From Kordia sp. TARA_039_SRF (GTDB lineage Bacteria; Bacteroidota; Bacteroidia; Flavobacteriales; Flavobacteriaceae), in NCBI GenBank assembly GCA_006383075.2, contig SMNH02000009.1, positions 62,001 to 126,000 of the forward strand: a stretch of DNA of 64,000 bases, written 5' to 3'. How positions within the stretch are numbered: the stretch's first letter is position 1; every line of letters starts with the position of its first letter. A program made the position numbers and the translations under genes. The notes beneath the pieces are model-generated. The model saw only the letters and a program-made list of their open reading frames with translations. It did not search any database and had not been told where the DNA came from. Positions 40,698-59,492 of this stretch are shown here, piece after piece.

Positions 40698-42392
40698 ATG
40701 AGTAACATTAAAGTACACGAAAGAACAAGAGCCCAAGAATCATCAGGAGCCATTGAACGTTTGTATATCACCATGCGCCATTTATTTAATCGCGGATTTT
40801 ACAAGCCAATGGGCGTTTCTGGAGAAACGTTGCGCGAGTCTTTACTATTGTTACGTCCAGAAATCTACGGTTCTGTTGCTGATAAAAAGGCGGAAATCAA
40901 TGGGTTAGCTTATGTGATTGATCGTTTGCCAGTTGGTATTGAAGAATGTCGCTTTATCAACTTAACATCTGATGAAGGATTTAAAAACTCACACTTTAAA
41001 GTCATCATTCCACCAAAAAGACGTAGAAATTGCTACCGAATTGACGAGGAGCAGATGAATATTGAAATCACGCGCGGTCGCTCAGAAATCTACGATATTT
41101 TAACGCATTTGACCTTTTTATTTATCGAATCACACAAAATTAGTGAACGTGTTTTAATCAGTGAAGATGGAGAAACTACGCGCGATTGGGTAAAATTGGC
41201 GCAAGCAGTTGATAAAAAGAAAAAGCTCACACAAGCAGAACGCGAAGTTGCCATTACGCATACCGCAAATATTTTAGGAAGAACTTTTGAAGAAATTTTA
41301 GACGCACACAAAACATTTTCGACTAAAGAAAATCCAGAGCGTTTTTTAAATATCATCTATTGGCTAGGAAAATTGGCTATCAAGGAAGTTACAACGGGTC
41401 AAAAAAGAACTATTACCTTTAGTCCGGTATTGCGTGAGCGTTTGGGACATCATATTCATGGAGAAGTTTGGGCAAACAACATCAAAAAAGTGCTCAAAGA
41501 CCATCAATTATTGCACAGACCTATTCACATTATCAGTGCCAATATGCACAGTGTGATGAACTCTATATTTGCTCCAAAATTGTTGCAAAAACAACTCAAC
41601 ACTACAGATGAGTTTGATATATTTGAAGCGTTGAGCGCTTCTAACAGCAATGCACTTCGAAATAAAGTAGAAAAAGAAGCGTTGAAGAAGGGAATGATGT
41701 ATATCAAAGACGAATCAGGAACCAATATTGACGTGCAAATTTTTGATACCGCTAAAATAGATTTCAGCAAAACCTCGTACACCTGTTGCGCAGAAAGTGA
41801 CGCTGAAAAACCTGTGTTATTTGTGATGGATTATGCCTTTGGCGAACAAGCCTATGAAACCATAGATGAGTTTTTAAAACCATACACGAGCGACGACCAA
41901 ACCCAGAAAGAATACTTGAACGTAGCGTCAATTTCTATTATGGGAAAAGCGGGAATTTTAGAAGGAGGGAAAGGAGATATCATGATTCCATCAGCACATA
42001 TATTTGAAGGAACAGCGGACAACTATCCTTTTAAAAACGAGTTGACCAAAGAAGATTTGGACGGTCATGGATTGCAAGTGTTTGAAGGCTCTATGATTAC
42101 CGTTTTAGGAACTTCTTTACAAAATAAAGACATTTTAAAGTTCTTCCACGATTCTACTTGGAATGTGATTGGACTCGAAATGGAAGGTGCACATTATCAA
42201 AAAGCTGTTCAATCAGCTTCAAAAATACGAAGAAGTATTACAGAAGATGTAAAAGTACGATATGCGTATTATGCTTCTGACAATCCTTTAGAAACAGGAA
42301 GTACATTAGCTTCTGGCGGATTAGGTACCACAGGTGTAAAACCTACCTATTTAATAACAAGAAAAATATTAGAACAACTATTTAACAACTAA
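40698..42392 (+). CDS. DUF6909-like protein, C-terminal half resembling nucleoside phosphorylases
   Basis: The ATG at 40698 gives 564 residues; nine upstream in-frame residues overlap a promoter box and are not used. The N-terminal half is helical (RLYITMRHLFNRGFYKPMGVSGE). The C-terminal part has SISIMGKAGILEGGKGDIMIPSAHIFEG and GLEMEGAHYQKAV, which resemble the phosphorylase/MTA-nucleosidase core (GxxG loop, GD(I)xxP strand, EMEG ribose-binding loop). This suggests nucleoside or nucleotide cleavage, as in AMP nucleosidase. It appears to be a Bacteroidota family (DUF6909) of unestablished function. It just precedes the polysaccharide locus. Confidence 0.7.
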   Translation: MSNIKVHERTRAQESSGAIERLYITMRHLFNRGFYKPMGVSGETLRESLLLLRPEIYGSVADKKAEINGLAYVIDRLPVGIEECRFINLTSDEGFKNSHFKVIIPPKRRRNCYRIDEEQMNIEITRGRSEIYDILTHLTFLFIESHKISERVLISEDGETTRDWVKLAQAVDKKKKLTQAEREVAITHTANILGRTFEEILDAHKTFSTKENPERFLNIIYWLGKLAIKEVTTGQKRTITFSPVLRERLGHHIHGEVWANNIKKVLKDHQLLHRPIHIISANMHSVMNSIFAPKLLQKQLNTTDEFDIFEALSASNSNALRNKVEKEALKKGMMYIKDESGTNIDVQIFDTAKIDFSKTSYTCCAESDAEKPVLFVMDYAFGEQAYETIDEFLKPYTSDDQTQKEYLNVASISIMGKAGILEGGKGDIMIPSAHIFEGTADNYPFKNELTKEDLDGHGLQVFEGSMITVLGTSLQNKDILKFFHDSTWNVIGLEMEGAHYQKAVQSASKIRRSITEDVKVRYAYYASDNPLETGSTLASGGLGTTGVKPTYLITRKILEQLFNN

Positions 42393-46755: not shown

Positions 46756-47556
46756 ATGCAAGAATATCTATATACCGCCATAAAAACAGCTGTACAGGCT
46801 GGCGGAATCATTATGGATATTTACGAAAATCAAATTGTAAATGTGGAGACAAAAGCGGACAATTCGCCTGTAACGATTGCTGATAAAACTGCGAATGCAT
46901 ACATTGAAAAAGAATTGGCAATAACCAACATTCCTGTACTAAGTGAAGAAGGTGAACACGCGGCGTATGAAATTCGCAAAAACTGGCAACAATGCTGGAT
47001 TGTTGATCCGCTAGACGGCACTAAAGAATTCATCAAGCGAAATGGTGAATTTACGGTGAATATTGCGTTGGTTGAAGACGGAAAAGCCTTGTTAGGCGTC
47101 ATTTATATTCCGGCCACAAAATCATTGTATTACGCTATTACGGCAGAACAAAAAGCGTATAAACTTACGTTAGACACACACAACATTATGCGTGATGCAC
47201 TCAAAAATGCTACACAAATATTTGCCGCTGAAGAAAACGATGATGAAATTACGCTGACCTCGAGTCATTCGTATACCAACAAAAAAGTGTTGGACTTAAT
47301 CGATTCGCTTGAAACGGAAGGAAAAGAAGTTAATCTCATCATGGCAGGAAGTTCGCTAAAATTTTGTCTTATGGCAGAAGGACAAGCGTCGTATTATCCG
47401 CGATACGCGCCCACAATGGAGTGGGATACAGCGGCAGGACATGCCATTTGCAATGCTGTCGGATTGGAAGTCTACAATTTAGAAACCCAAAAACCACTAA
47501 AATACAACAAGGAAAATCTACTAAATCCGTGGTTTCTTGTTCGAAAAGTAGGTTAA
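46756..47556 (+). CDS. cysQ: 3'(2'),5'-bisphosphate nucleotidase CysQ
   Basis: The ATG at 46756 gives 266 residues; a TTG one codon earlier is also in frame. It is an inositol-monophosphatase-fold, Mg-dependent, Li-sensitive enzyme that hydrolyses 3'-phosphoadenosine 5'-phosphate from sulfotransfer reactions. Metal-site motifs are LSEEG near 62-66, WIVDPLDGTKEF with D84 and D87, and EWDTAAGHAI. Location within glycan loci is frequent and may relate to sulfated polymers; no sulfotransferase is seen here. Its last 19 codons are duplicated at 50678-50737. Confidence 0.94.
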   Translation: MQEYLYTAIKTAVQAGGIIMDIYENQIVNVETKADNSPVTIADKTANAYIEKELAITNIPVLSEEGEHAAYEIRKNWQQCWIVDPLDGTKEFIKRNGEFTVNIALVEDGKALLGVIYIPATKSLYYAITAEQKAYKLTLDTHNIMRDALKNATQIFAAEENDDEITLTSSHSYTNKKVLDLIDSLETEGKEVNLIMAGSSLKFCLMAEGQASYYPRYAPTMEWDTAAGHAICNAVGLEVYNLETQKPLKYNKENLLNPWFLVRKVG

Positions 47557-47769: not shown

Positions 47770-49233
47770 ATGTTTTTCAATTCATTAGATTTTGCAATCT
47801 TTTTTCCAATCGTATTTGTTCTTTATTGGTTTTTTTCAAAAAACTTACGCCAAAGAAATATTTTCATTTTAGCTGCGAGTTATTTTTTCTATGGATTTTG
47901 GAATTGGAAATTCTTATCTCTAATCATTATCAGTTCATTTGTAGATTATTTTATTGGAAAAGAATTGTACAAAACTGAAGCCAAAAAGAAGCGAAAACTC
48001 CTGTTATATGGAAGCTTACTTGTCAATTTAGGCTTTTTGATTTACTTCAAGTATTTTAACTTTTTCATAGAAAGCTTTGTGGATGCTTTCAATCTTTTTG
48101 GAAAAGAACTACAAATAGAAACATTGAATATTATATTACCTGTTGGGATTAGCTTCTATACCTTTCAAACACTTAGTTATACCATTGATATTTACAAAGG
48201 AAAGCTGAAACCAACCAATGACATTGTTGCATTCTTTACATTCGTTGCATTCTTTCCACAGTTAGTAGCAGGTCCAATTGAAAGAGCTTCACATTTATTA
48301 CCTCAATTTTTTAAAAAATATACCTTCAATTACGAGCAAGTAAAAAGCGGTATCATATTAATGCTATGGGGACTTTTTAAGAAGATGGTTATTGCTGATA
48401 GGCTGGCGTTGTTGGTTAATGAAACATACAATAATGTTGGAAGCTACTCAGGAATAGAATTTATCATCGGTACCATCTTTTTTGCATTTCAGATTTACTG
48501 TGATTTCTCAGGGTATTCAGATATTGCTATTGGAATTTCGAGAACTATGGGATTTGATTTGATGAAAAACTTTGAAAGGCCTTATTTTTCTAAATCCATC
48601 ACAGAGTTTTGGAGACGATGGCATATTTCCTTATCTACGTGGTTTAGAGATTATGTGTACATTCCACTAGGAGGAAGTCGAAATGGAAAATACAGAACCT
48701 ATTTTAACTTGTTTATGGTGTTCTTTATCAGTGGAATATGGCACGGTGCGGCAATGACTTTTGTTATTTGGGGAGCTATACACGGAATCATTATCGTATT
48801 AGAAAAAGCTACCGGAAAATTTCGAAAAAAGATGTTTGCATCTATACACCTCACAAAAGACAACGTATTTGGAAAAATATTCTTTATCACAATTACTTTT
48901 GTCATAGTATGCTTTGCATGGATATTTTTTAGAGCAAATTCATTAAGCGATTCAATGGTGATTATAGAACAAATATTTTCTTTTGGGTCTAGTGGAAAAA
49001 GTGTTGTTTCTGAATTAGGATTAAATCAAGTAGAATTTTATGCTTCGCTGGCATTTATAGTTTTTATGCTGAGCTTTGAATGGAGTCATAAAAAGTGGAA
49101 TTTAAGTGCGTTACTACAGCAACAAAATATTTTTATTAGATGGAGCGTGTATACAATCTCTGCTATAGCAATAATTATACTTGGAGTCTATGGCTCTTTC
49201 AATGAATCTGAATTTATATACTTTCAATTCTAA
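47770..49233 (+). CDS. MBOAT-family membrane O-acyltransferase
   Basis: The 487-residue protein has about ten or eleven transmembrane helices and the AlgI/DltB-type pattern: NLGFLIYFKYFNFF, ILPVGISFYTFQTLSYTIDIY, FFPQLVAGPIERA, EFWRRWHISLSTWFRDYVYIPLGG (split at its natural turn) and GIWHGAAMTF, containing the catalytic H325. It moves acyl groups, usually acetyl, across the inner membrane for transfer to a secreted polymer. The SGNH-type protein encoded 4 bp downstream is the expected partner that completes transfer. Both sit between two copies of the cysQ 3' end. Confidence 0.92.
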   Translation: MFFNSLDFAIFFPIVFVLYWFFSKNLRQRNIFILAASYFFYGFWNWKFLSLIIISSFVDYFIGKELYKTEAKKKRKLLLYGSLLVNLGFLIYFKYFNFFIESFVDAFNLFGKELQIETLNIILPVGISFYTFQTLSYTIDIYKGKLKPTNDIVAFFTFVAFFPQLVAGPIERASHLLPQFFKKYTFNYEQVKSGIILMLWGLFKKMVIADRLALLVNETYNNVGSYSGIEFIIGTIFFAFQIYCDFSGYSDIAIGISRTMGFDLMKNFERPYFSKSITEFWRRWHISLSTWFRDYVYIPLGGSRNGKYRTYFNLFMVFFISGIWHGAAMTFVIWGAIHGIIIVLEKATGKFRKKMFASIHLTKDNVFGKIFFITITFVIVCFAWIFFRANSLSDSMVIIEQIFSFGSSGKSVVSELGLNQVEFYASLAFIVFMLSFEWSHKKWNLSALLQQQNIFIRWSVYTISAIAIIILGVYGSFNESEFIYFQF

Positions 49234-49237
49234 CATT

Positions 49238-50638
49238 ATGAAAAAACTATTTTTAAAATTATCGTTACTATTTGTAATAGTTTTAGTTTTGTTACAATTA
49301 GGAAATAAATTTTTCAAATCTCATAAGGGTTCGGTGAAAACATGGCAACAATTCTATGAAAATGAAGAGCCAAAATATGATATTATAATTTCAGGAAATT
49401 CCATAGCATATTCTGCATATAATCCTCAAATAATTAACTCCAAATCAAGCTTAAATACTTTCAATTTGTCCAGTTCATCCATAGGAATTGAACAAGTACT
49501 TTATAATTTTAAAGAAATTATAAAGTATAATAAACCGCAGTTGTTCATCGTAGAAGCACACGCGTTGGATATAACGACAACAAATATAGGTAAACGGTTA
49601 AAGTTCAATTATCAGAATATTGACGGACAAAAATTATCGCTGAATAAATTGAGCAGCATTTACCATGTTTTTGATTCGAAAAGCACAATGGTTGAAGCGA
49701 TGTTTCCCGTAGTTCGAAATCATAACAAATGGTCAGATTTTGAGTTTCTAGAAAAGAATGCCAATTATACCTACAGATTTGATAAAAAATTAGGTTACAG
49801 AAATTTATCTACCAAAGGATATAAAAAGCGTATTGCAAAAACCATTGGCAAAATGCCTAAATCTTACGAAATTCCAGAAGAGAATATACATTTTCTTAAA
49901 GAAATAGTTGACTTATGTACTGAAAATGATATAGAATTTTTATTGGTAAGAGCTCCTCAAATAAAATATCAATCCGATAAAAAACTTGTCAATCAAATTT
50001 ACGAGACAACCACAAAACTATGTGAGGAGCTTTCCATAGCATATCTCGATCAGAACTACGGCTACGACAAAGTTGGTTTTAAAGAATCAGAATTCTATGA
50101 TGCTTTACACTTAAATACAACTGGAGCTACCAAAGCCACGGAGTTGCTCAGTGAAGCAATTGACAAGAACTTTGCACTTACCAAAAATGAAAATATAGTG
50201 CATAAAGTCCCAAATCAGAATACTGATGAAGATCATTATAAAAACTTTAAAGGACTTCTTGAAAAACCGTTCACACCTATTGAAGGAATTATTATTGACC
50301 AAGTATATGTAAAGTATTTTGAAGATGGCACATACAGCTTTTATGTATGCTTTGATAAAAAATCAAATACTGAAACAATCTCTAAATACAAACTAGCCAT
50401 GCAATTCTTCCCCGAAAAAGAAGATATAGCATCTTTGAAAAATGCTGCGGAACGAAAAAAAGGACGTATAAGTTTTGGTGCATTATCAGAACCTTACCTA
50501 ACAAATCAAGAACATCATATACGCGTCATTGATCAAAAGAAACTAGACCTCTCCAAGTTTAAATCGTTTGTCATGTATTTGTACAATAGTGAAGAAGTGA
50601 GTAAAAAAGTCACCTCAAGAAATGTTAACTTACAATAA
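49238..50638 (+). CDS. SGNH-type acyltransferase/esterase partner of MBOAT, with extra C-terminal domain
   Basis: The ATG at 49238 gives 466 residues, with one N-terminal membrane anchor (residues 5-23, LFLKLSLLFVIVLVLLQLG) and a periplasmic catalytic domain. The nucleophile block IISGNSIAYSAYNP places Ser55; the Asp-His pair lies in EFYDALHLNTTG (D288, H291). This is like the AlgJ/AlgX/DltD-type proteins paired with MBOATs. Residues about 345-466 form an added beta-rich domain (TYSFYVCFDKKSNTE, ISKYKLAMQFFP, HHIRVIDQKK, FKSFVMYLYNSEEV). That domain closely resembles the lipoprotein encoded at 55471. The 3' end is followed by the cysQ remnant. Confidence 0.82.
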   Translation: MKKLFLKLSLLFVIVLVLLQLGNKFFKSHKGSVKTWQQFYENEEPKYDIIISGNSIAYSAYNPQIINSKSSLNTFNLSSSSIGIEQVLYNFKEIIKYNKPQLFIVEAHALDITTTNIGKRLKFNYQNIDGQKLSLNKLSSIYHVFDSKSTMVEAMFPVVRNHNKWSDFEFLEKNANYTYRFDKKLGYRNLSTKGYKKRIAKTIGKMPKSYEIPEENIHFLKEIVDLCTENDIEFLLVRAPQIKYQSDKKLVNQIYETTTKLCEELSIAYLDQNYGYDKVGFKESEFYDALHLNTTGATKATELLSEAIDKNFALTKNENIVHKVPNQNTDEDHYKNFKGLLEKPFTPIEGIIIDQVYVKYFEDGTYSFYVCFDKKSNTETISKYKLAMQFFPEKEDIASLKNAAERKKGRISFGALSEPYLTNQEHHIRVIDQKKLDLSKFKSFVMYLYNSEEVSKKVTSRNVNLQ

Positions 50639-50677
50639 GAAATACTACCATAGGGTATATTATTGAAACGGTAAACA

Positions 50678-50737
50678 TTAAAATACAACAAAAAAAATCT
50701 ACTAAATCTCTGGCTTCTTGTTCGAAAAGTAGGATAA
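50678..50737 (+). pseudogene. Duplicated 3' end of cysQ (fragment)
   Basis: The last 19 codons plus stop of cysQ recur here: LKYNKKNLLNLWLLVRKVG against LKYNKENLLNPWFLVRKVG. At DNA level 50 of 55 bases agree between 47498-47552 and 50679-50733, at a constant offset of 3181 bp. The copy has no start and is not expressed as a protein. Confidence 0.85.
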
Positions 50738-50744
50738 TAAAAAA

Positions 50745-50779
50745 GGGGAATTAACCCTTTCCAAAAAGGGTATTTCCCC
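50745..50779 (-). terminator. Strong hairpin after the cysQ fragment
   Basis: GGGGAA pairs with TTCCCC and, inside, ACCCTTT with AAAGGGT around a short loop. The T run (TTTTTT) is on the minus-strand side, so as a terminator it works best leftward; no leftward gene is annotated. On the plus strand it could be an attenuator. Confidence 0.5.
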
Positions 50780-50817
50780 AGAAAAGTCAATTATTTCCTA
50801 GACTTATAATTTTTAGC

Positions 50818-50825
50818 TAGTTTTG
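50818..50825 (+). promoter_or_regulatory. Candidate -7 box (TAGTTTTG) of the epimerase gene
   Basis: This matches TAnnTTTG, 17 bp before the ATG at 50843. It suggests that transcription restarts here, after the hairpin at 50745-50779. No clear -33 element is seen. Confidence 0.45.
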
Positions 50826-50842
50826 CAGCGAATAATAGCAAC

Positions 50843-51838
50843 ATGTATCAAGAAGCATATTACCCAACACACCTACATACGCACAGTTTTTTAATCACGG
50901 GAGGCGCAGGATTTATTGGTGCCAATTTGGTGGAATATTTACTGAAACACAACGCCAAAAAAGTACGTGTATTAGATAACTTGGCAACAGGTTTTAAACA
51001 CAATATTAGCGAATTTGAATCACATCCAAATTTTGAATTTATTCAAGGCGATATTCGCGATTTGGAAACCTGTAAAAACGCTGTCGCGGGAATGGACTTT
51101 GTGCTACACCAAGCGGCGTTAGGCTCTGTACCGCGTTCGTTCAACGATCCAGTTTCTACGAATGAAGTCAATATTTCAGGATTCTTAAACATGTTACTAG
51201 CTTCGCGTGATGCAGGCGTACAACGTATGGTATATGCTGCTTCTTCAAGTACATATGGCGATAGCAAAGCATTGCCAAAACAAGAAGAAATCATCGGAAA
51301 ACCTTTGTCGCCGTATGCGATTACCAAGTATGTCAACGAATTGTATGCAGACAATTTTTCAACACATTTTGACTTTCATACCGTCGGATTGCGATACTTT
51401 AATGTTTTTGGACCAAAACAAAATGTGAAAGGCGCGTATGCAGCCGTAATTCCGCTATTTTTCAATGCTGGAATACATAACACAAACGTAACAATCAATG
51501 GTGACGGAAATCAAACAAGAGATTTTACTTTTGTCGAAAATGTAGTACAGGCGAATATGAAGGCGTTATTTGCAGAAATTACACAGCATGAAGTAGTTAA
51601 CGTAGCTGTGGGCAATCGCATCAGCGTAAACGATTTGTGGAAAAATATTAAAGACATCACAAAAAGTACGGTAGAAGCGCATCATGGTGAAAGTAGAATA
51701 GGAGACGTACGCGATTCACTAGCCGATATTTCAAAAGCAAAAAAAATATTAGGATACGAGCCAACATATACAGTTCGTGATGGTTTAGCTATTACACACG
51801 ACTTTTTTAAACAACAAGCAGCAACCAATGACAAATAA
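50843..51838 (+). CDS. UDP-N-acetylhexosamine C4-epimerase (TviC/WbpP type)
   Basis: The 331-residue extended short-chain dehydrogenase has NAD motif [10 protein letters not shown] at 19-28, HQAALGSVPRSFNDP, the catalytic YAASSSTYGD and Y158-x3-K162 in SPYAITKYVNE. GSVPRS is characteristic of the WbpP/TviC group acting on UDP-GlcNAc/UDP-GalNAc or their uronic acids. The dehydrogenase gene overlaps its end by 11 bp, reproducing the TviB/TviC pair that makes UDP-GalNAcA. The exact sugar is inferred from the family. Confidence 0.88.
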   Translation: MYQEAYYPTHLHTHSFLITGGAGFIGANLVEYLLKHNAKKVRVLDNLATGFKHNISEFESHPNFEFIQGDIRDLETCKNAVAGMDFVLHQAALGSVPRSFNDPVSTNEVNISGFLNMLLASRDAGVQRMVYAASSSTYGDSKALPKQEEIIGKPLSPYAITKYVNELYADNFSTHFDFHTVGLRYFNVFGPKQNVKGAYAAVIPLFFNAGIHNTNVTINGDGNQTRDFTFVENVVQANMKALFAEITQHEVVNVAVGNRISVNDLWKNIKDITKSTVEAHHGESRIGDVRDSLADISKAKKILGYEPTYTVRDGLAITHDFFKQQAATNDK

Positions 51839-53087
51839 AATACTTTCCATAATAGGATTAGGATATGTTGGATTGCCATTGGCTGTCGAATTCAGCAAAA
51901 AAGGATATCAAGTCATCGGATTTGACATCAATGCGGCGCGTGTTGAAGAATTACAACAAGGAAAAGATCATACGCTAGAAGTAAGCGAAGCAGAATTGCA
52001 AGAAGCTTCCAGCTTACAATACAGCTGCAAAGCAGAAGATATTGCACAAGCAAATGTCTATATCGTAACAGTTCCAACGCCAATTACAGAGCATAAATTT
52101 CCAGATTTAACGCCAATTGAAGCGGCTTCAAGCTTAGTTGGTTCGGTATTAAAAAAAGGAGATATTGTCATTTATGAATCTACCGTGTTTCCAGGTTGTA
52201 CCGAAGAAGTTTGTGTACCAATTTTAGAAGCGCAAAGCGGATTAAGCTTTAATGAAGATTTCTTTTGTGGGTATTCTCCCGAAAGAATCAATCCTGGAGA
52301 TAAAAAACATCGAGTGAATAACATTGTCAAAGTGACTTCAGGAAGTACGCCTGAAATTGCAGAAACGATTGACGAACTCTACAAAAGCATTGTGACGGTT
52401 GGTACGTACAAAGCATCTTCCATCAAAGTTGCGGAAGCTGCTAAAGTGATTGAAAACTCTCAGCGCGACATCAACATTGCATTTGTCAACGAATTGGCAT
52501 TGATTTTTGGAAAACTAGGTATTGACACACACGAAGTACTAGAAGCTGCGGGAACCAAGTGGAATTTTCTACCGTTTACACCAGGTTTGGTTGGCGGACA
52601 TTGCATTGGCGTAGATCCGTATTATTTAACACACAAAGCCAAAAGTGTAGGATACCTTCCGCAAGTTATTTTAGCAGGAAGAAAAATAAACGATAATATG
52701 GGCAAATACATTGCAGAACGCGTGGTAAAGCTCATGATAAAACAAGAAAAACTCATCAAAGGCGCTAAAGTGACTATATTGGGAATTACGTTCAAAGAAA
52801 ACTGTCCCGATATTAGAAACACGCGCGTTATTGACATTGTACATGAGTTGGAAGAATATGGAATTGAAGTTGAGGTATTTGATGACAACGTCAACGCTTC
52901 TGAAGTAAAAACAGCATACAATATTGACTTGGTTTCGTCTATTTCAAACGACACTAGAGCGATTATTTTGGCAGTTGCGCATAAAAGTTTCAATAAAATT
53001 GACGTAACTCCCTTTTTTAAAGCAGGATGTATTATTTTTGACGCGAAAAATTTCTTCCCAAAACCAATAGTAACCGAAAGATTATAG
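51828..53087 (+). CDS. UDP-N-acetylhexosamine 6-dehydrogenase (TviB/WbpO type)
   Basis: The 419-residue UDP-sugar dehydrogenase has N-terminal NAD motif IIGLGYVGLPLAVEF, YIVTVPTPI, ESTVFPGCTEEVCVP and FFCGYSPERINPGDK. The catalytic Cys259 is in GLVGGHCIGVDPYY, and the C-terminal UDP-binding motif is LGITFKENCPDIRNTR. GYSPERINPGD with FPGCTEE is the TviB/WbpO variant, which oxidises UDP-GlcNAc or UDP-GalNAc to the uronic acid with two NAD. It overlaps the epimerase gene by 11 bp. Confidence 0.9.
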   Translation: MTNKILSIIGLGYVGLPLAVEFSKKGYQVIGFDINAARVEELQQGKDHTLEVSEAELQEASSLQYSCKAEDIAQANVYIVTVPTPITEHKFPDLTPIEAASSLVGSVLKKGDIVIYESTVFPGCTEEVCVPILEAQSGLSFNEDFFCGYSPERINPGDKKHRVNNIVKVTSGSTPEIAETIDELYKSIVTVGTYKASSIKVAEAAKVIENSQRDINIAFVNELALIFGKLGIDTHEVLEAAGTKWNFLPFTPGLVGGHCIGVDPYYLTHKAKSVGYLPQVILAGRKINDNMGKYIAERVVKLMIKQEKLIKGAKVTILGITFKENCPDIRNTRVIDIVHELEEYGIEVEVFDDNVNASEVKTAYNIDLVSSISNDTRAIILAVAHKSFNKIDVTPFFKAGCIIFDAKNFFPKPIVTERL

Positions 53088-53121
53088 CCGTAATACTAAA
53101 TAAAAGAACAAAAACAAACTG

Positions 53122-54249
53122 ATGAAAAAAAACCTAATTGTATTTGGTACACGACCAGAAGCCATCAAAATGGCACCACTGGTAAAAGAATTTTTAAAAC
53201 ACCAAGACACTTTTGAAACAAAAGTTTGCATCACGGCACAGCACAGAGAAATGCTAGATCAGGTACTTTCATTCTTTGAAATCACACCAGATTATGATTT
53301 GGATCTTATGAAACCGAATCAGAATTTATATGGACTTACGTCAGATATCATCATGAATTTAAAACCTGTGTTGGAAGATTTTCAACCAGATTACGTATAC
53401 GTTCACGGAGATACAACTACGACAATGGCAACGAGTATTGCAGCCTTTTATTCAGGCGCCAAAGTATGTCACGTAGAAGCTGGCTTGCGAACGTTTAATA
53501 AGCGTTCTCCATTTCCAGAAGAAATCAATCGCTGTGTAACGGGAAGTATTTGTGATTATCACTTTTCTCCAACAGAAACTTCAAAAAACAATCTGCTCAA
53601 CGAAAATGTAGCAGATGAAAACATATTAATCACTGGAAATACGGTTATTGATGCGTTGCATTTTAGTGCAGCCAAAGTAAAATCAGACGGTTTCCAAGAC
53701 CAAGAAATCGAAGACGTAAAAGAAGTTTTAGACACGTCAAAGCGCTTGATTTTGGTGACGGGACATCGTAGGGAAAATCACGGGCAAGGATTTATCAATA
53801 TTTGTACAGCATTAAAACAGATTGCCACTAATCATCCAGACACGCAAATCATTTACCCTGTACACTTAAATCCAAACGTACAAAAGCCAGTTTACGAATT
53901 ATTAGCTGATATTGATAATGTAAAATTGATCAATCCGTTATCGTATCCTGCATTTGTATGGTTAATGGACAAATCGCACATCATCATTACAGATAGTGGC
54001 GGCGTACAGGAAGAAGCACCTAGTTTAGGAAAGCCAGTATTGGTAATGCGTGATACTACCGAGCGCCCAGAAGCAGTTGATGCAGGAACCGTTTTATTGG
54101 TAGGAACCGATACTGAAAAAATTATCAGTGAAGCAAACAAATTACTAACAGACGAATCATCATATCACAAAATGAGCAAATTGCACAATCCGTATGGAGA
54201 CGGAACAGCTTGTGATAAGATTGTAACATACATGTCAAAATTACACTAA
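53122..54249 (+). CDS. wecB: UDP-N-acetylglucosamine 2-epimerase (non-hydrolysing)
   Basis: The 375-residue GT-B-fold enzyme interconverts UDP-GlcNAc and UDP-ManNAc. It has the start VFGTRPEAIKMAPLV, TAQHREMLDQVL, VHGDTTTTMA, HVEAGLRTFNKRSPFPEE-type HVEAGLRTF..., VTGHRRENHGQG and DSGGVQEEAPSLGKPVLVMR. All are active-site or UDP-contact segments. With the dehydrogenase encoded 5 bp downstream, it supplies UDP-ManNAcA. Confidence 0.96.
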   Translation: MKKNLIVFGTRPEAIKMAPLVKEFLKHQDTFETKVCITAQHREMLDQVLSFFEITPDYDLDLMKPNQNLYGLTSDIIMNLKPVLEDFQPDYVYVHGDTTTTMATSIAAFYSGAKVCHVEAGLRTFNKRSPFPEEINRCVTGSICDYHFSPTETSKNNLLNENVADENILITGNTVIDALHFSAAKVKSDGFQDQEIEDVKEVLDTSKRLILVTGHRRENHGQGFINICTALKQIATNHPDTQIIYPVHLNPNVQKPVYELLADIDNVKLINPLSYPAFVWLMDKSHIIITDSGGVQEEAPSLGKPVLVMRDTTERPEAVDAGTVLLVGTDTEKIISEANKLLTDESSYHKMSKLHNPYGDGTACDKIVTYMSKLH

Positions 54250-54254
54250 AAATC

Positions 54255-55460
54255 ATGGGAACTAACAAACCAAGCGTTGTAATGGTAGGTTTAGGATATA
54301 TTGGACTTCCTACAGCAGCGTTAATAGCAAGTAAAGAAATAAAAGTAACAGGAGTTGATATTCATCAACACGTAGTAGATACTATTAACAAAGGAGAAAT
54401 CCACATTGTAGAGCCAGACTTAGATGGTTTGGTGCATCATGTCGTAAAAGAAGGATATTTAACAGCAAGTACTCAACCTGTAGAAGCAGATGTGTATTTA
54501 ATTGCCGTACCAACACCTTTTAAAGGCGATTACGAACCAGATATTTCGTATGTAGAATCGGCAACAAGAGCATTGTTACCAACCTTGAAAGAAGGTGCGT
54601 TGGTTATTGTAGAATCGACAAGTCCTGTTGGAACTACCGAAAAAATGCAAAAAGTCATTGAAACGGAACGTCCTGAGTTGAAAGGAAAAATATATATGGC
54701 GTATTGCCCAGAGCGTGTATTGCCTGGAAATGTTATTTACGAATTGGAGCACAACGATAGAGCTATTGGCGGAATCAATCCAGAATCGACAGAGAAAGCG
54801 GTAGCATTTTACAGACATTTTGTAAAAGGAACTTTGCATAAAACCAACTCTAAAACGGCAGAAATGTGTAAGTTGGTTGAAAACTCATCAAGAGACGTTC
54901 AAATTGCATTTGCTAACGAATTATCTATGATTTGTGATGAAGCTGGTATCAATGTATGGGAATTGATCAATTTAGCCAACAAACATCCACGTGTCAACAT
55001 TTTACAACCTGGAACGGGCGTTGGTGGACACTGTATTGCAGTAGATCCTTGGTTTATTGTTTCTGAATTTCCAGCGCAAGCAAAAATTATTCGTTCTGCA
55101 CGAGAAATCAACAATTACAAAACAGAATGGGCAATTGAAAAGGTGAAAAATACAGCCTTACAATTTAAAATTGACAATGGAAGAGATGCAAAAATCGCGT
55201 GTATGGGATTGGCATTTAAACCAAATATTGACGATTTAAGAGAATCGCCAGCATTGCAAGTGGTTGACAAGCTTTCTATCGATGGCTTTCAGGTACTTGC
55301 AGTAGAACCGAACATTAAAGAACACGAAAACTATACCATCTACGATATGGAAGATGCTATAGCACAAGCAGATATTATTGTATATTTGGTTGCGCATAGA
55401 GAGTTTGCAAATACTGAAAAGGTAAAACAAACGTTAGACTTTTGTGGAATATTTAAATAA
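54255..55460 (+). CDS. wecC: UDP-N-acetyl-D-mannosamine dehydrogenase
   Basis: The 401-residue dehydrogenase oxidises UDP-ManNAc to UDP-ManNAcA. It has VGLGYIGLPTAALIA, YLIAVPTPFKGDYEPD, VESTSPVGTTEKM, YCPERVLPGNVIYEL, the catalytic Cys260 in GVGGHCIAVDPWF, and MGLAFKPNIDDLRESPA. The AVPTPF and CPERVLPG variants separate WecC from the TviB-type gene at 51828. It is 5 bp after wecB, forming a compact operon pair. Confidence 0.95.
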   Translation: MGTNKPSVVMVGLGYIGLPTAALIASKEIKVTGVDIHQHVVDTINKGEIHIVEPDLDGLVHHVVKEGYLTASTQPVEADVYLIAVPTPFKGDYEPDISYVESATRALLPTLKEGALVIVESTSPVGTTEKMQKVIETERPELKGKIYMAYCPERVLPGNVIYELEHNDRAIGGINPESTEKAVAFYRHFVKGTLHKTNSKTAEMCKLVENSSRDVQIAFANELSMICDEAGINVWELINLANKHPRVNILQPGTGVGGHCIAVDPWFIVSEFPAQAKIIRSAREINNYKTEWAIEKVKNTALQFKIDNGRDAKIACMGLAFKPNIDDLRESPALQVVDKLSIDGFQVLAVEPNIKEHENYTIYDMEDAIAQADIIVYLVAHREFANTEKVKQTLDFCGIFK

Positions 55461-55470
55461 TAAACATACA

Positions 55471-56043
55471 ATGAAAATTATGAAAAAAGCATTTATATTA
55501 GTTCTTGGTCTTTTTCTAGTGGCTTGCGGGTCAGAAGAAAAAAAGAAAAACAGCGAACCAATAGATAAAGACAAAACTAAAACTGAAGAGGTAAATAAAG
55601 AGGATACAAAACAATATCCTAAAGTAGAAAAGCAGTATCCTGTAAATATGAATATTATTTACAGCGGTGGATATCTTTTTGACGAAAAAATCCAGTTAGA
55701 GGAAATTGCAGTTGTTGCAACAGAAAAAGCAAATACATACGATCTTGTAATGTTTTTTAATAATAAAGCAACAGATTATGAGGTGTTAGAAAAGTATAAA
55801 GTAGGACTTATTTTATACCCTAATGACCCTAGCAAATTAGAATCTGATAGTGATAAAGCAGCTAAAAAGAAAAAATTTGGAAAGCCTGCTGATGTAAAAA
55901 TGTTAGAGACGGAACATGTTATTGTGTTAGATGATATTGAAGTAGCACCAAAAGACTTCAAACAAATAAAAATATATTTATATGACTCTAAAGGTGTTTT
56001 AAATAAAAACTTCTTGAAGTTAACCAATACTGTTTTTCCATAA
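55471..56043 (+). CDS. Lipoprotein sharing the C-terminal domain of the SGNH protein
   Basis: The ATG at 55471 gives 190 residues, with an alternative ATG three codons later. The lipobox is LFLVAC, lipidated Cys at 19. A charged linker (residues 20-60, Lys/Glu/Asp) is followed by a beta-rich domain (TYDLVMFFNNKATD, LEKYKVGLILYPNDP, HVIVLDDIEVAPKDFKQIKI, YLYDSKGVLNKNF). This domain aligns by eye with the last 120 residues of the MBOAT-linked SGNH protein. No function is known. It lies 10 bp past wecC and ahead of the first polymerase, so a role in glycan handling at the membrane is plausible. Confidence 0.72.
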   Translation: MKIMKKAFILVLGLFLVACGSEEKKKNSEPIDKDKTKTEEVNKEDTKQYPKVEKQYPVNMNIIYSGGYLFDEKIQLEEIAVVATEKANTYDLVMFFNNKATDYEVLEKYKVGLILYPNDPSKLESDSDKAAKKKKFGKPADVKMLETEHVIVLDDIEVAPKDFKQIKIYLYDSKGVLNKNFLKLTNTVFP

Positions 56044-57432: not shown

Positions 57433-58603
57433 AAGTAACATACACCAAACTCAAATAACACTATTGGCTGTTTTTGGTCTTTTCATGCCTTTTAGCAGAA
57501 TTGTAAATGTTAATATGGTATTGTTAGGTCTAGTTGTGCTATTATCTATAATCACCGCGATAAGAAAACAAAATAAACAAAACATAAGCAGTGGAAAAGA
57601 GCTTTTTAGTCTAATTTTCTTTTTTGGAATCTTATTGTGTTCTTTATTATATACAGAAGAATTTTACAAAGGTCAAAAAGTTATTGTTCGAAGTTTGCCC
57701 ATACTATTATTTGCTCTGAGCTTTCTTTTGATGGAACAATTCACAAAAAAAGACGTACACAAAATTTTCAAATATTATGTTATAGGTTGTGCACTGTCTA
57801 TCTTTTATTGCTTTCTTATTGCCTTTATAAACTACACAGATAACCCTTTACCATTAACGGAAGGATTTACCTATTTTACACTAACTCTAGATTTTCACCC
57901 ATCATACTTTGCGCTATATATCATCTTTGCATTTTGCGCTTTTGTATCCATATTTGATTGGAACTCAAAAACTAAAAGATGGATTCCAGTTGCAACTTGG
58001 TTTTTACTATTATTACTCATACTATTTCTAAGAAGTAGAGCTCCATTGATTATCTTACTTAGTGTTACTATTTTAATGTTGCTTAAAAAGGTAAAAAAAC
58101 AACTAGCATTCATAATAGTTGCAGTATTACTTATACCTGCTTTTTTTTACATTCAAGACATTTTAGAAGTAATCTCTCAGGGCAGAAGCATCACATTATC
58201 ATTGGCCGATAGGTTTCATATTTGGTCAAGTACTACCGATATTATAAAAGAAAATATGTTTTTGGGTGTTGGAGTAGGCGATTATCAAGTAGCGTTAGAT
58301 AAGCAATATTTCTTAACAGGGTTTGATAAAGGAATAGATGAAAAATTTAATTGTCACAATCAATACTTACAAACATTTCTTTCAGTCGGTTTAATTGGTT
58401 TGATAAGTCTCCTTTCAATATTTTTCTTCATCTTAAAAAAGGGAGTTCAAACACAATTATTTTTACCATTTTATTTCTTAATTGGTATAAGTATTTTAAT
58501 GTTTTTTGACGCTGTATTAATTCTACAGCATGGAGTGTACTTTTTCTCTTTTTTTGCAGCTATATTTTTAAAATTTAAACAGAATACTCATGAATCTACA
58601 TAA
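57419..58603 (+). CDS. O-antigen ligase/polymerase (Wzy_C family) membrane protein
   Basis: The 394-residue protein has about ten or eleven hydrophobic helices. The Wzy_C signature region includes FHPSYFALYIIFAF, LFLRSRAPLIILL, GVGVGDYQVAL and CHNQYLQTFLSVGLIGL, with His and Arg residues typical of WaaL-like ligases. It either joins the polymer to its carrier or polymerises units. The ATG at 57419 lies within the previous gene, and its own 3' end overlaps the beta-propeller gene by 14 bp, so all three are coupled. Confidence 0.82.
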   Translation: MLKFKSNIHQTQITLLAVFGLFMPFSRIVNVNMVLLGLVVLLSIITAIRKQNKQNISSGKELFSLIFFFGILLCSLLYTEEFYKGQKVIVRSLPILLFALSFLLMEQFTKKDVHKIFKYYVIGCALSIFYCFLIAFINYTDNPLPLTEGFTYFTLTLDFHPSYFALYIIFAFCAFVSIFDWNSKTKRWIPVATWFLLLLLILFLRSRAPLIILLSVTILMLLKKVKKQLAFIIVAVLLIPAFFYIQDILEVISQGRSITLSLADRFHIWSSTTDIIKENMFLGVGVGDYQVALDKQYFLTGFDKGIDEKFNCHNQYLQTFLSVGLIGLISLLSIFFFILKKGVQTQLFLPFYFLIGISILMFFDAVLILQHGVYFFSFFAAIFLKFKQNTHEST

Positions 58604-59492
58604 ATTACTTACTTGCTTTTGTTTCTTCATAGGCTGTGTAGCGTATTGCCAGATAGATACTAGTAGATGTAGTGAAGTATTAAACGAAGATTTTTCGCCA
58701 AGAGTTTTCAATCTTTTAAAAAACAAACTTCTTTCTAACTCATCCAATGCTAATACGATGTATTTAGTTGATAAAAACGACTTAAAAATATTCTCGTACA
58801 ATGGCAATGGCGTAGTAACAGCAGGCATAGATGAGCAACACAAAAGAATAGCAATTTCCTACTATGTAAACACTATACATGTATACAACATACAAACGCT
58901 AGACACTATCAAAAAAATTGACTTAGAAGCAAAGTGCAGCGCTTTGTCGCTACATAAAGATGTATTGGTGTACGGTTTAGATAACGGATTGGTAAAAGAA
59001 TATGATTTTATCTCCAAAAAGGAAAAAACAATTGCAACGCATGCCGGTATTGTGAGAGGCGTACAGGTGCTTAATGACGGTACTATACTAAGTATTTCAA
59101 GTGATGGTGAATTAAAAATGAATCATCCAACAAAAAAATTAAAACACAAATTTCCTAAAGTGCTTACCGCAATGGCAGTTTCTTCAAGCGAAGAGATGAT
59201 TGCAATTGGCACTTTTGACGGATCGGTGTATCTTTTAAATAGAAACTATGAAACTGTGGCAGAATTAGCGCCGCACACAAGTGTTATTACTCAGATAAAG
59301 TTTAGAAATAATCAAGAACTTATCACGTCTTCGTTTGACAAAAAGTTAATAAATACAGATATTACCACAAAAAAAATGACACTTATACACACATCAAAAG
59401 ATTATATAATGGCGTTCGACATGAGTGCAGATAAGCTTATATTTAGTGATAGAAGTGGAACGGTTACGTTTTACAATCTTAAATGTCAATAA
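58590..59492 (+). CDS. Secreted WD40/quinoprotein-like beta-propeller protein
   Basis: The 300-residue protein has signal peptide MNLHKLLTCFCFFIGCVAYC. Six or so repeats of about 40 residues follow, of the form strand-turn-strand with end signals (IAISYYVNTIHVYNIQTLDT, LVYGLDNGLVKEYDF, ILSISSDGELKMN, IAIGTFDGSVYLLNR, LITSSFDKKLINTDI, LIFSDRSGTVTFYNL). This is a WD40-type propeller, a protein-binding platform. It is unusual inside a Wzx/Wzy locus. It is translationally coupled to the ligase-like gene by a 14-bp overlap, and 28 bp separate it from the flippase. Confidence 0.75.
   Translation: MNLHKLLTCFCFFIGCVAYCQIDTSRCSEVLNEDFSPRVFNLLKNKLLSNSSNANTMYLVDKNDLKIFSYNGNGVVTAGIDEQHKRIAISYYVNTIHVYNIQTLDTIKKIDLEAKCSALSLHKDVLVYGLDNGLVKEYDFISKKEKTIATHAGIVRGVQVLNDGTILSISSDGELKMNHPTKKLKHKFPKVLTAMAVSSSEEMIAIGTFDGSVYLLNRNYETVAELAPHTSVITQIKFRNNQELITSSFDKKLINTDITTKKMTLIHTSKDYIMAFDMSADKLIFSDRSGTVTFYNLKCQ

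Follow-up and report, generated by a model that had tools for sequence, protein, structure and literature searches.

The SGNH-type protein and a small lipoprotein of a Kordia-like glycan locus share a C-terminal domain of about 120 residues. We propose, and give the proposal an even chance of being right, that this domain is a small β-sandwich glycan-binding module of Flavobacteriaceae surface-polysaccharide loci, with a role on each of the two proteins. Both genes lie in the window (the whole 64,000-nucleotide stretch analysed here), at the positions given for them in the original prediction. The features referred to below are, by position in the window:

47770..49233, + strand: MBOAT membrane O-acyltransferase (AlgI/PatA/DltB-like), ending in FIYFQF; PF03062 at E 3e-32, above cut-off.
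49238..50638, + strand: SGNH-type transferase partner, 466 aa, ATG at 49238; N-terminal TM-like helix, SGNH core, C-terminal accessory domain.
50279..50635, + strand: shared domain, copy 1; SGNH C-terminus, residues ~348-466.
50450..50467, + strand: basic segment of copy 1; domain residues 58-63, a short predicted helix end and the following turn.
50843..53087, + strand: TviC-like and TviB-like genes; TviB model E 9e-171, TviC model E 9e-99, both below cut-offs.
53122..55460, + strand: wecB- and wecC-like genes (UDP-ManNAcA supply); TIGR00236 E 3e-151 and PRK11064 model E 3e-169, both above cut-offs.
55471..56043, + strand: lipoprotein, 190 aa, ATG at 55471; lipobox Cys, CGSEEKKK, charged linker, then the shared domain.
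55678..56040, + strand: shared domain, copy 2; lipoprotein residues ~70-190; AlphaFold2 β-sandwich, pLDDT 83.6, pTM 0.74.
55852..55875, + strand: basic segment of copy 2; domain residues 59-66.

In a direct BLASTP comparison the lipoprotein and the SGNH protein are identical at 26 of 94 positions (28%; E 2e-6 for a single comparison), and the landmarks that had been matched by eye are positions that BLASTP aligns. Searching the window's own genome with the lipoprotein returned the SGNH C-terminus as the sole other domain copy (E 3e-5); the three remaining matches (E 0.25 to 1.9) are confined to the N-terminal ~50 residues of the lipoprotein. An HMM built from 11 lipoproteins, containing no SGNH rows, recovers the window SGNH protein at E 2.3e-16 and also matches SGNH proteins in two other genomes. 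The profile-profile comparison suggested with the original prediction, here lipoprotein-only (10 rows) against SGNH-only (4 rows), matches over 116 columns with a probability of 99.0 and an E of 9.6e-18. Chance similarity of the copies is ruled out, as a lipoprotein-only domain HMM scores the window SGNH C-terminus at 58.9 bits, compared with a best of 12.4 in 1000 shuffles and 5.6 bits for the best of 531 reversed ORFs. Secondary-structure elements are predicted in the same order in both copies, which is not an independent test since the two predictions share alignment rows. The end-to-end correspondence first seen by eye is thus borne out by BLASTP, profile and profile-profile comparisons.

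The shared module is uncatalogued, as no curated family of Pfam or NCBIfam reaches its cut-off. Searches of Pfam, NCBIfam and PHROGs with 23 domain members yielded single-member matches only (best E 0.0084, 0.0034 and 0.0015, respectively), and the few Pfam and NCBIfam matches (E ≥ 0.0084 and 0.0034) include no CBM family. The domain profile matched no PDB chain by sequence. AlphaFold2 models the lipoprotein copy as a coherent, weakly Ig/Fn3-like β-sandwich. Together with the family searches, this upholds the idea of a new shared domain. Among the best 50 of 1200 Foldseek matches of this model to the PDB, none falls under E 0.001 and no named carbohydrate-binding module appears; most are to generic sandwiches of the Ig/Fn3-like kind, a type of fold also used in protein binding, which counts against the glycan-binding proposal. 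A viral fold library likewise gave nothing under E 0.001. Two labels for the whole lipoprotein were rejected, as a LytA-type lipoprotein (E 6e-4; 20 bits, where the cut-off is 110) and as PLCC (E 0.008), since each match is restricted to the signal peptide and linker.

Among the sampled genomes, the domain has relatives in Flavobacteriaceae only, where they sit among glycan genes. It is borne by 19 lipoproteins, four firm MBOAT-partner SGNH proteins, one lyase and, tentatively, one multi-TM protein (locus L168) that has a weak domain match and no match in Pfam or NCBIfam. Two SGNH proteins of L071, with borderline domain matches (E 3e-4 and 0.01), were left out of the firm SGNH count. The lyase, from locus L136, is of the heparinase II/III type (PF16889, PF07940) and carries two tandem copies. 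A domain-only profile (A3) detected the domain in 18 of 249 family genomes, four of them by weak matches (G118, G197, G226 and G248, with internal stops in G226), and in the window's own genome only among 158 phylum genomes. This profile replaced a full-length lipoprotein profile (A1), most of whose listed matches (at least 217/397 family and at least 36/395 phylum genomes) were rejected because they extended over roughly its first half at most, a region made up of signal peptide and linker. No relative was found in viral contigs searched with the lipoprotein or in genome contigs in a first search with the SGNH C-terminus.

Further small lipoproteins encoded in loci of this kind (L069 13618, L072 12101, L074 8349, L169 5761) are not matched by the domain profile, and the SGNH C-termini of L070, L072, L073, L074, L075 and L138 fall below its detection. 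Because some of these C-termini, for example those of L070 and L075, may have escaped detection through divergence, we did not rely on a swapped C-terminal slot in SGNH proteins without a detected domain. A tree of 25 of the 27 domain hits, omitting L071 and L168 (E over 1e-5), shows SGNH and lipoprotein labels no more clustered than shuffled labels, with at least two label changes forced by well-supported branches. The domain is a mobile accessory, present across lipoproteins, SGNH fusions, the lyase and the weak multi-TM fusion. The sequences are very divergent, sharing as little as 12% identity with the window copy in the A3 set, and their most conserved positions are hydrophobic and core-like. 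Such divergence, with mostly hydrophobic positions kept, would also be expected of a folding or stability appendage with no ligand of its own, the lipoprotein being a spacer or chaperone-like factor. We regard this as improbable, slightly more so than any other reading discussed here, as finding the domain on unrelated proteins from one kind of locus suggests a shared function.

The presence of the domain on a sugar-cutting enzyme suggests that it is probably a grip on the sugar chain. Polymer binding, one of the functions originally put forward, gains indirect support from the two copies on the lyase, and a predicted β-sandwich-like fold fused to a heparinase II/III-type lyase and to SGNH proteins would fit a carbohydrate-binding module. 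It would then be a new domain family of an already known kind of accessory module.

Locus context and charge bear on the putative ligand. The wecB-/wecC-like pair lies immediately upstream of the window lipoprotein, and a WecC-like gene is directly upstream of 11 of the 19 lipoproteins and of the lyase. From sequence, the TviC-/TviB-like genes are a probable second N-acetylhexosaminuronic acid route. Domain residues 55-70 have a mean net charge of +2.3 compared with -0.1 for the rest of the domain, and are positive in 18 of 23 members, zero in five and negative in none, in a segment chosen after inspection of an alignment whose rows are related. The segment is short or absent in some members (L138 and the second copy of L137), and a second, less basic stretch spans residues 89-104. 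Against the proposal, too, the overall charge of the lipoprotein copies ranges from -4 to +11. A basic segment would suit an acidic polymer, in keeping with the uronate genes, or a sulfated one; sulfate-activation genes adjoin the lipoproteins in L137 and L138.

An Ig/Fn3-like sandwich could also serve protein docking. Both copies would then bind one third protein, such as a polymerase, flippase, ligase or export component, and so join modification and an outer-membrane lipoprotein at one assembly site. One locus can indeed hold both copies (the window and L058), and the outer-membrane lipoprotein AlgK forms a complex with AlgX, as described in the cited part of PMC9734138. Two tandem copies on the lyase, however, are easier to understand as a way to bind a repeated ligand with avidity, and in 12 of the 18 lipoprotein loci the fetched stretch (for L066 a 6-kb contig) contains no MBOAT. 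Moreover, what follows the lipoprotein gene differs from locus to locus, so that no one conserved extracytoplasmic partner gene is seen beside it. We consider docking rather unlikely.

The same loci bear on the earlier suggestion of a scaffold for acylation at the membrane, in which the lipoprotein would position the MBOAT-SGNH pair or the acylated polymer. MBOAT and lipoprotein do share six of the 18 loci (the window, L058, L059, L060, L063 and L138), the SGNH and lipoprotein genes are adjacent in L058, and whole-genome searches of six genomes without an MBOAT in the locus found one elsewhere in five. In the sixth, G296 (99% complete), no MBOAT relative was detected at E ≤ 1e-10, and nothing evident connects the lyase fusion with acylation. 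Together with the MBOAT-less loci, G296 speaks for a glycan-binding module rather than a scaffold for acylation; as a general role, scaffolding is not supported, and we judge an acylation-specific scaffold improbable.

As for the SGNH protein, family, motif, predicted fold and catalytic residues suggest that it and the MBOAT form a bacterial MBOAT-SGNH acyltransferase pair. The MBOAT matches the DltB model TIGR04091 at E 4e-46, below that model's cut-off, and all 14 MBOATs found in the window and the other loci end in FIYFQF; the excerpt of PMC12148441 cited here describes FxYxxF as the acyl-shuttle motif at the MBOAT C-terminus. In the SGNH partner S55 and H291 are invariant in 11 of 11 rows, while the Asp before the His is not in every row. 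The protein has no Pfam match. Its full model (pLDDT 62) gave 14 PDB matches at E ≤ 1e-3, namely 10 SGNH hydrolase chains and four designed-scaffold chains; PatB and DltD are in the list at E 5.7e-3 and 5.3e-3. As in PatA/PatB and DltB/DltD, an MBOAT with a C-terminal FxYxxF is paired with an SGNH partner (in Dlt the motif is on a separate microprotein, according to PMC12148441). Unlike in those systems, the window SGNH protein carries an extra C-terminal domain, and the expected acceptor is a surface glycan rather than peptidoglycan or teichoic acid.

The closer parallel is AlgX, which, in the cited sections of PMC9734138 and PMC4148444, has an SGNH core followed by a C-terminal module of ~115 residues (348-463 in P. 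aeruginosa AlgX) and is encoded in an acidic-polymer locus whose acetylation uses an MBOAT. The cited section of PMC4148444 describes that module as carbohydrate-binding and AlgX as binding mannuronate oligomers, with core and module binding not distinguishable by its authors. AlgX is not, however, among the best 50 fold matches for either model, and the domain profile matches no PDB chain by sequence.

The SGNH enzyme probably decorates a sugar chain, by predicted acyl transfer. The MBOAT would load an acyl group, probably acetyl, on the Tyr of its C-terminal FIYFQF and pass it to S55 of the SGNH protein, whose core would transfer it to an acidic, aminouronate-containing polymer. The domain, which follows the catalytic core and would face outwards from the inner membrane, would hold the polymer in place, by analogy with what is thought for the AlgX module. 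On the lipoprotein the same module would sit on a charged tether, lipid-anchored most likely in the outer membrane. There it may bind polymer of the same kind while this is being exported, or retain it at the cell surface. A broader version, which we put forward only tentatively, is a Flavobacteriaceae-specific lectin-like module matched to the acidic glycan of each strain and common to its extracytoplasmic handlers (acyltransferase, lyase, perhaps a membrane glycosyltransferase). On the lipoprotein it would tether that glycan non-covalently to the outer membrane or guide its export.

The lyase fusion, the acyltransferase fusion and the lipoprotein, all among surface-glycan genes, give an uncatalogued domain a handle. 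If polymer binding is true, it would explain substrate recognition by the MBOAT-SGNH enzyme. The domain would also be a candidate means by which Flavobacteriaceae retain or steer their surface glycans at the outer membrane, a process for which, to our knowledge, few parts are known in this family.

In the equivalent locus of Kordia algicida, K. periserrulae and G148, MBOAT and lipoprotein are followed by a second type of SGNH protein (546-551 aa), in which an inserted region with a weak CBM_4_9_1 match (E 0.014, below cut-off) replaces the shared domain. Surface lipoproteins of Bacteroidota, in the cited part of PMC5080379, carry an export signal (LES) in which a polar or basic residue, together with two acidic ones, comes right behind the lipobox Cys. 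The CGSEEKKK start of the window lipoprotein fits a loose form of this pattern, but overall only 6 of the 19 lipoproteins start in this way, which counts against the proposed role.

The C-terminal domain of about 120 residues that the original prediction placed in both the SGNH protein (49238-50638; residues about 348-466) and the lipoprotein (55471-56043; residues about 70-190) was confirmed by BLASTP, a lipoprotein-only profile, profile-profile comparison and shuffled sequences. Pairwise BLASTP aligned the two proteins at E 2e-6. A profile built from 11 lipoproteins, with SGNH proteins left out, matched the SGNH C-terminus at E 2.3e-16, as well as the SGNH proteins of two other genomes, G155 (locus L058, 1e-15) and G129 (L068, 9e-13). 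The real C-terminus scored 58.9 bits, versus 12.4 for the best of 1000 shuffles, and a lipoprotein-only profile matched an SGNH-only profile with a probability of 99.0 and an E-value of 9.6e-18. An iterated search of 476 ORFs, from 24 fetched loci plus the window, converged on 25 domain matches (two borderline, in L071), none in a protein of evidently unrelated context; from three further loci came two more lipoproteins and a weak match.

Both genes lie in a surface-glycan locus (43475-63858). The genome comprises 27 contigs and 4.59 Mb and has two relatives of its own genus among those sampled (G179 and G353); Kordia is a member of the Flavobacteriaceae.

Features of the glycan locus and its left edge
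40698-42392: DUF6909 protein (left edge)
within 43475-63858: dTDP-rhamnose-type genes
46756-47556: CysQ-like gene (TIGR01331 above cut-off)
from 47770: MBOAT
from 49238: SGNH protein with the domain
within the locus: TviC/TviB-like genes; WecB-like and WecC-like genes
from 55471: lipoprotein with the domain
56068: repeat-unit-polymerase-like protein (E 7e-4 only)
57419: O-antigen-ligase-type protein
58590-59492: secreted-looking WD40/beta-propeller protein, between the ligase-like and flippase genes
within the locus: flippase, glycosyltransferase and hexapeptide transferase genes

Since two probable uronic-acid routes are encoded here (TviB-like; WecB/WecC-like), an anionic polymer is expected. 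Models for adenylyl-sulfate kinase and sulfate adenylyltransferase identify cysC, cysD and cysN genes in L137 (5556-10559) and L138 (7462-13417), with the domain lipoproteins among them, a hint that the glycans of these two loci are sulfated. In the window locus, just the CysQ-like gene was seen. The position of the WD40/beta-propeller gene is unchanged in L058 and L061, and relatives of the DUF6909 protein occupy an equivalent position in many fetched loci.

Across 27 fetched loci and the window, the domain occurs in 19 lipoproteins (18 loci) and in four firm SGNH fusions (window, L058, L068 and L069), with one or two more borderline (L071). L136 encodes a 908-residue protein with two domain copies that also matches the N-terminal and the C-terminal heparinase II/III domains of Pfam (E 2e-18 and 6e-18). 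In L168 the domain is C-terminal in a 681-residue protein with about seven TM-like segments (E 2e-5, 7e-5 and 6e-4 in three separate searches); this protein has no match in Pfam or NCBIfam, and our guess is a glycosyltransferase. A WecC-like gene lies immediately upstream of 11 of the 19 lipoproteins and of the L136 lyase; the SGNH and lipoprotein genes of L058 are side by side. The heparinase II/III-type protein of L136 (9478-12204) carries a signal peptide and a possible lipobox; its gene, inside a biosynthesis locus, occupies the place directly downstream of the WecC-like gene often taken by the lipoprotein.

The domain has moved from one type of protein to another. When 25 copies were placed in a tree, the labels lipoprotein and SGNH clustered no more than shuffled labels, and the starred branches require at least two changes of each label; the tree contains many weak branches and three long terminal ones. 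At E <= 0.001 the domain-only profile matched at least 18 of the 249 Flavobacteriaceae genomes searched, with four weak matches among these; in a set of 158 genomes from across the phylum it matched only the window's own. Both counts are lower bounds, since the number of candidates scored in each genome was limited in the first pass.

The lipoprotein domain was modeled with eight strands and two short helices (mean pLDDT 83.6, pTM 0.74, from just seven aligned sequences). In the SGNH copy the elements follow the same order, within a poorer full-length model (pLDDT 62), an agreement that is not independent, as the two predictions have alignment rows in common. Foldseek against the PDB gave 1200 matches to the lipoprotein domain model at E <= 10, of which none reached 0.001; most of the best 50 were sandwiches of Ig, Fn3, TapA and GH2-linked type, and query TM-scores ranged from 0.21 to 0.54. 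The core of the SGNH protein, by its model, is recognizable as an SGNH fold: 14 matches in the PDB reach E <= 1e-3 (10 chains of SGNH-type esterases or thioesterases and four chains of designed scaffolds), and DltD (6pfx) and PatB (8tlb) follow with E-values of about 5e-3.

A basic segment of the domain is a lead for a binding site. Residues 55-70 have a mean net charge of +2.3 versus -0.1 elsewhere in the domain, positive in 18 of 23 copies and zero in five, a segment spotted prior to testing and in related alignment rows. Lysine or arginine fills positions 60-63 in 38-71% of rows with a letter there. In sliding windows the most basic stretch is 60-75 (+2.6), the next separate one 89-104 (+1.5). 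In the model the segment covers the last part of a short helix plus the turn that follows.

The gene content speaks against the suggestion that the domain scaffolds acylation at the membrane: no MBOAT is seen in the fetched stretch (some 10 kb on each side, and a shorter span in L066, L137 and L139) in 12 of 18 lipoprotein loci. Among six genomes with such loci searched whole, five have MBOAT relatives elsewhere (best of each 40-54% identity), whereas at E <= 1e-10 none was detected in G296, so that action in trans is possible in most of them, not in G296.

We give roughly an even chance to the following explanation as a whole: a glycan-binding module, acylation via MBOAT-SGNH and a tethered lipoprotein copy. 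Every MBOAT in the window and the loci, 14 in all, ends in FIYFQF, and the tyrosine of FXYXXF in PatA is auto-acetylated and then supplies the SGNH partner, according to PMC12148441. Given this ending and precedent, the acyl group would be expected to pass from acyl-CoA to the MBOAT tyrosine, to Ser55 of the SGNH protein and on to the polymer. The SGNH C-terminal domain would hold the polymer, by analogy with the polymer-holding role proposed for the module of AlgX in PMC4148444. The lipoprotein would be a copy of the domain tethered at the outer membrane; its CGSEEKKK resembles a lipoprotein export signal reported in PMC5080379, a loose version of which fits just 6 of the 19 lipoproteins. Searches of open-access papers listed none that was recognized as a description of this domain.

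The lipoprotein gene of K. algicida, K. periserrulae and G148 has downstream of it a more distantly related MBOAT (39-40% identity to that of the window) and an SGNH protein of another type. Proteins of this type (L059 6416-8071, L060 6584-8224, L063 10521-12173; 546-551 residues) have an insert that is jelly-roll-like by eye, with a weak CBM_4_9_1 match (E 0.014). Similar loci also encode small lipoproteins (L069 13618, L072 12101, L074 8349, L169 5761) that do not match the domain profile and possibly do the same job with another sequence.
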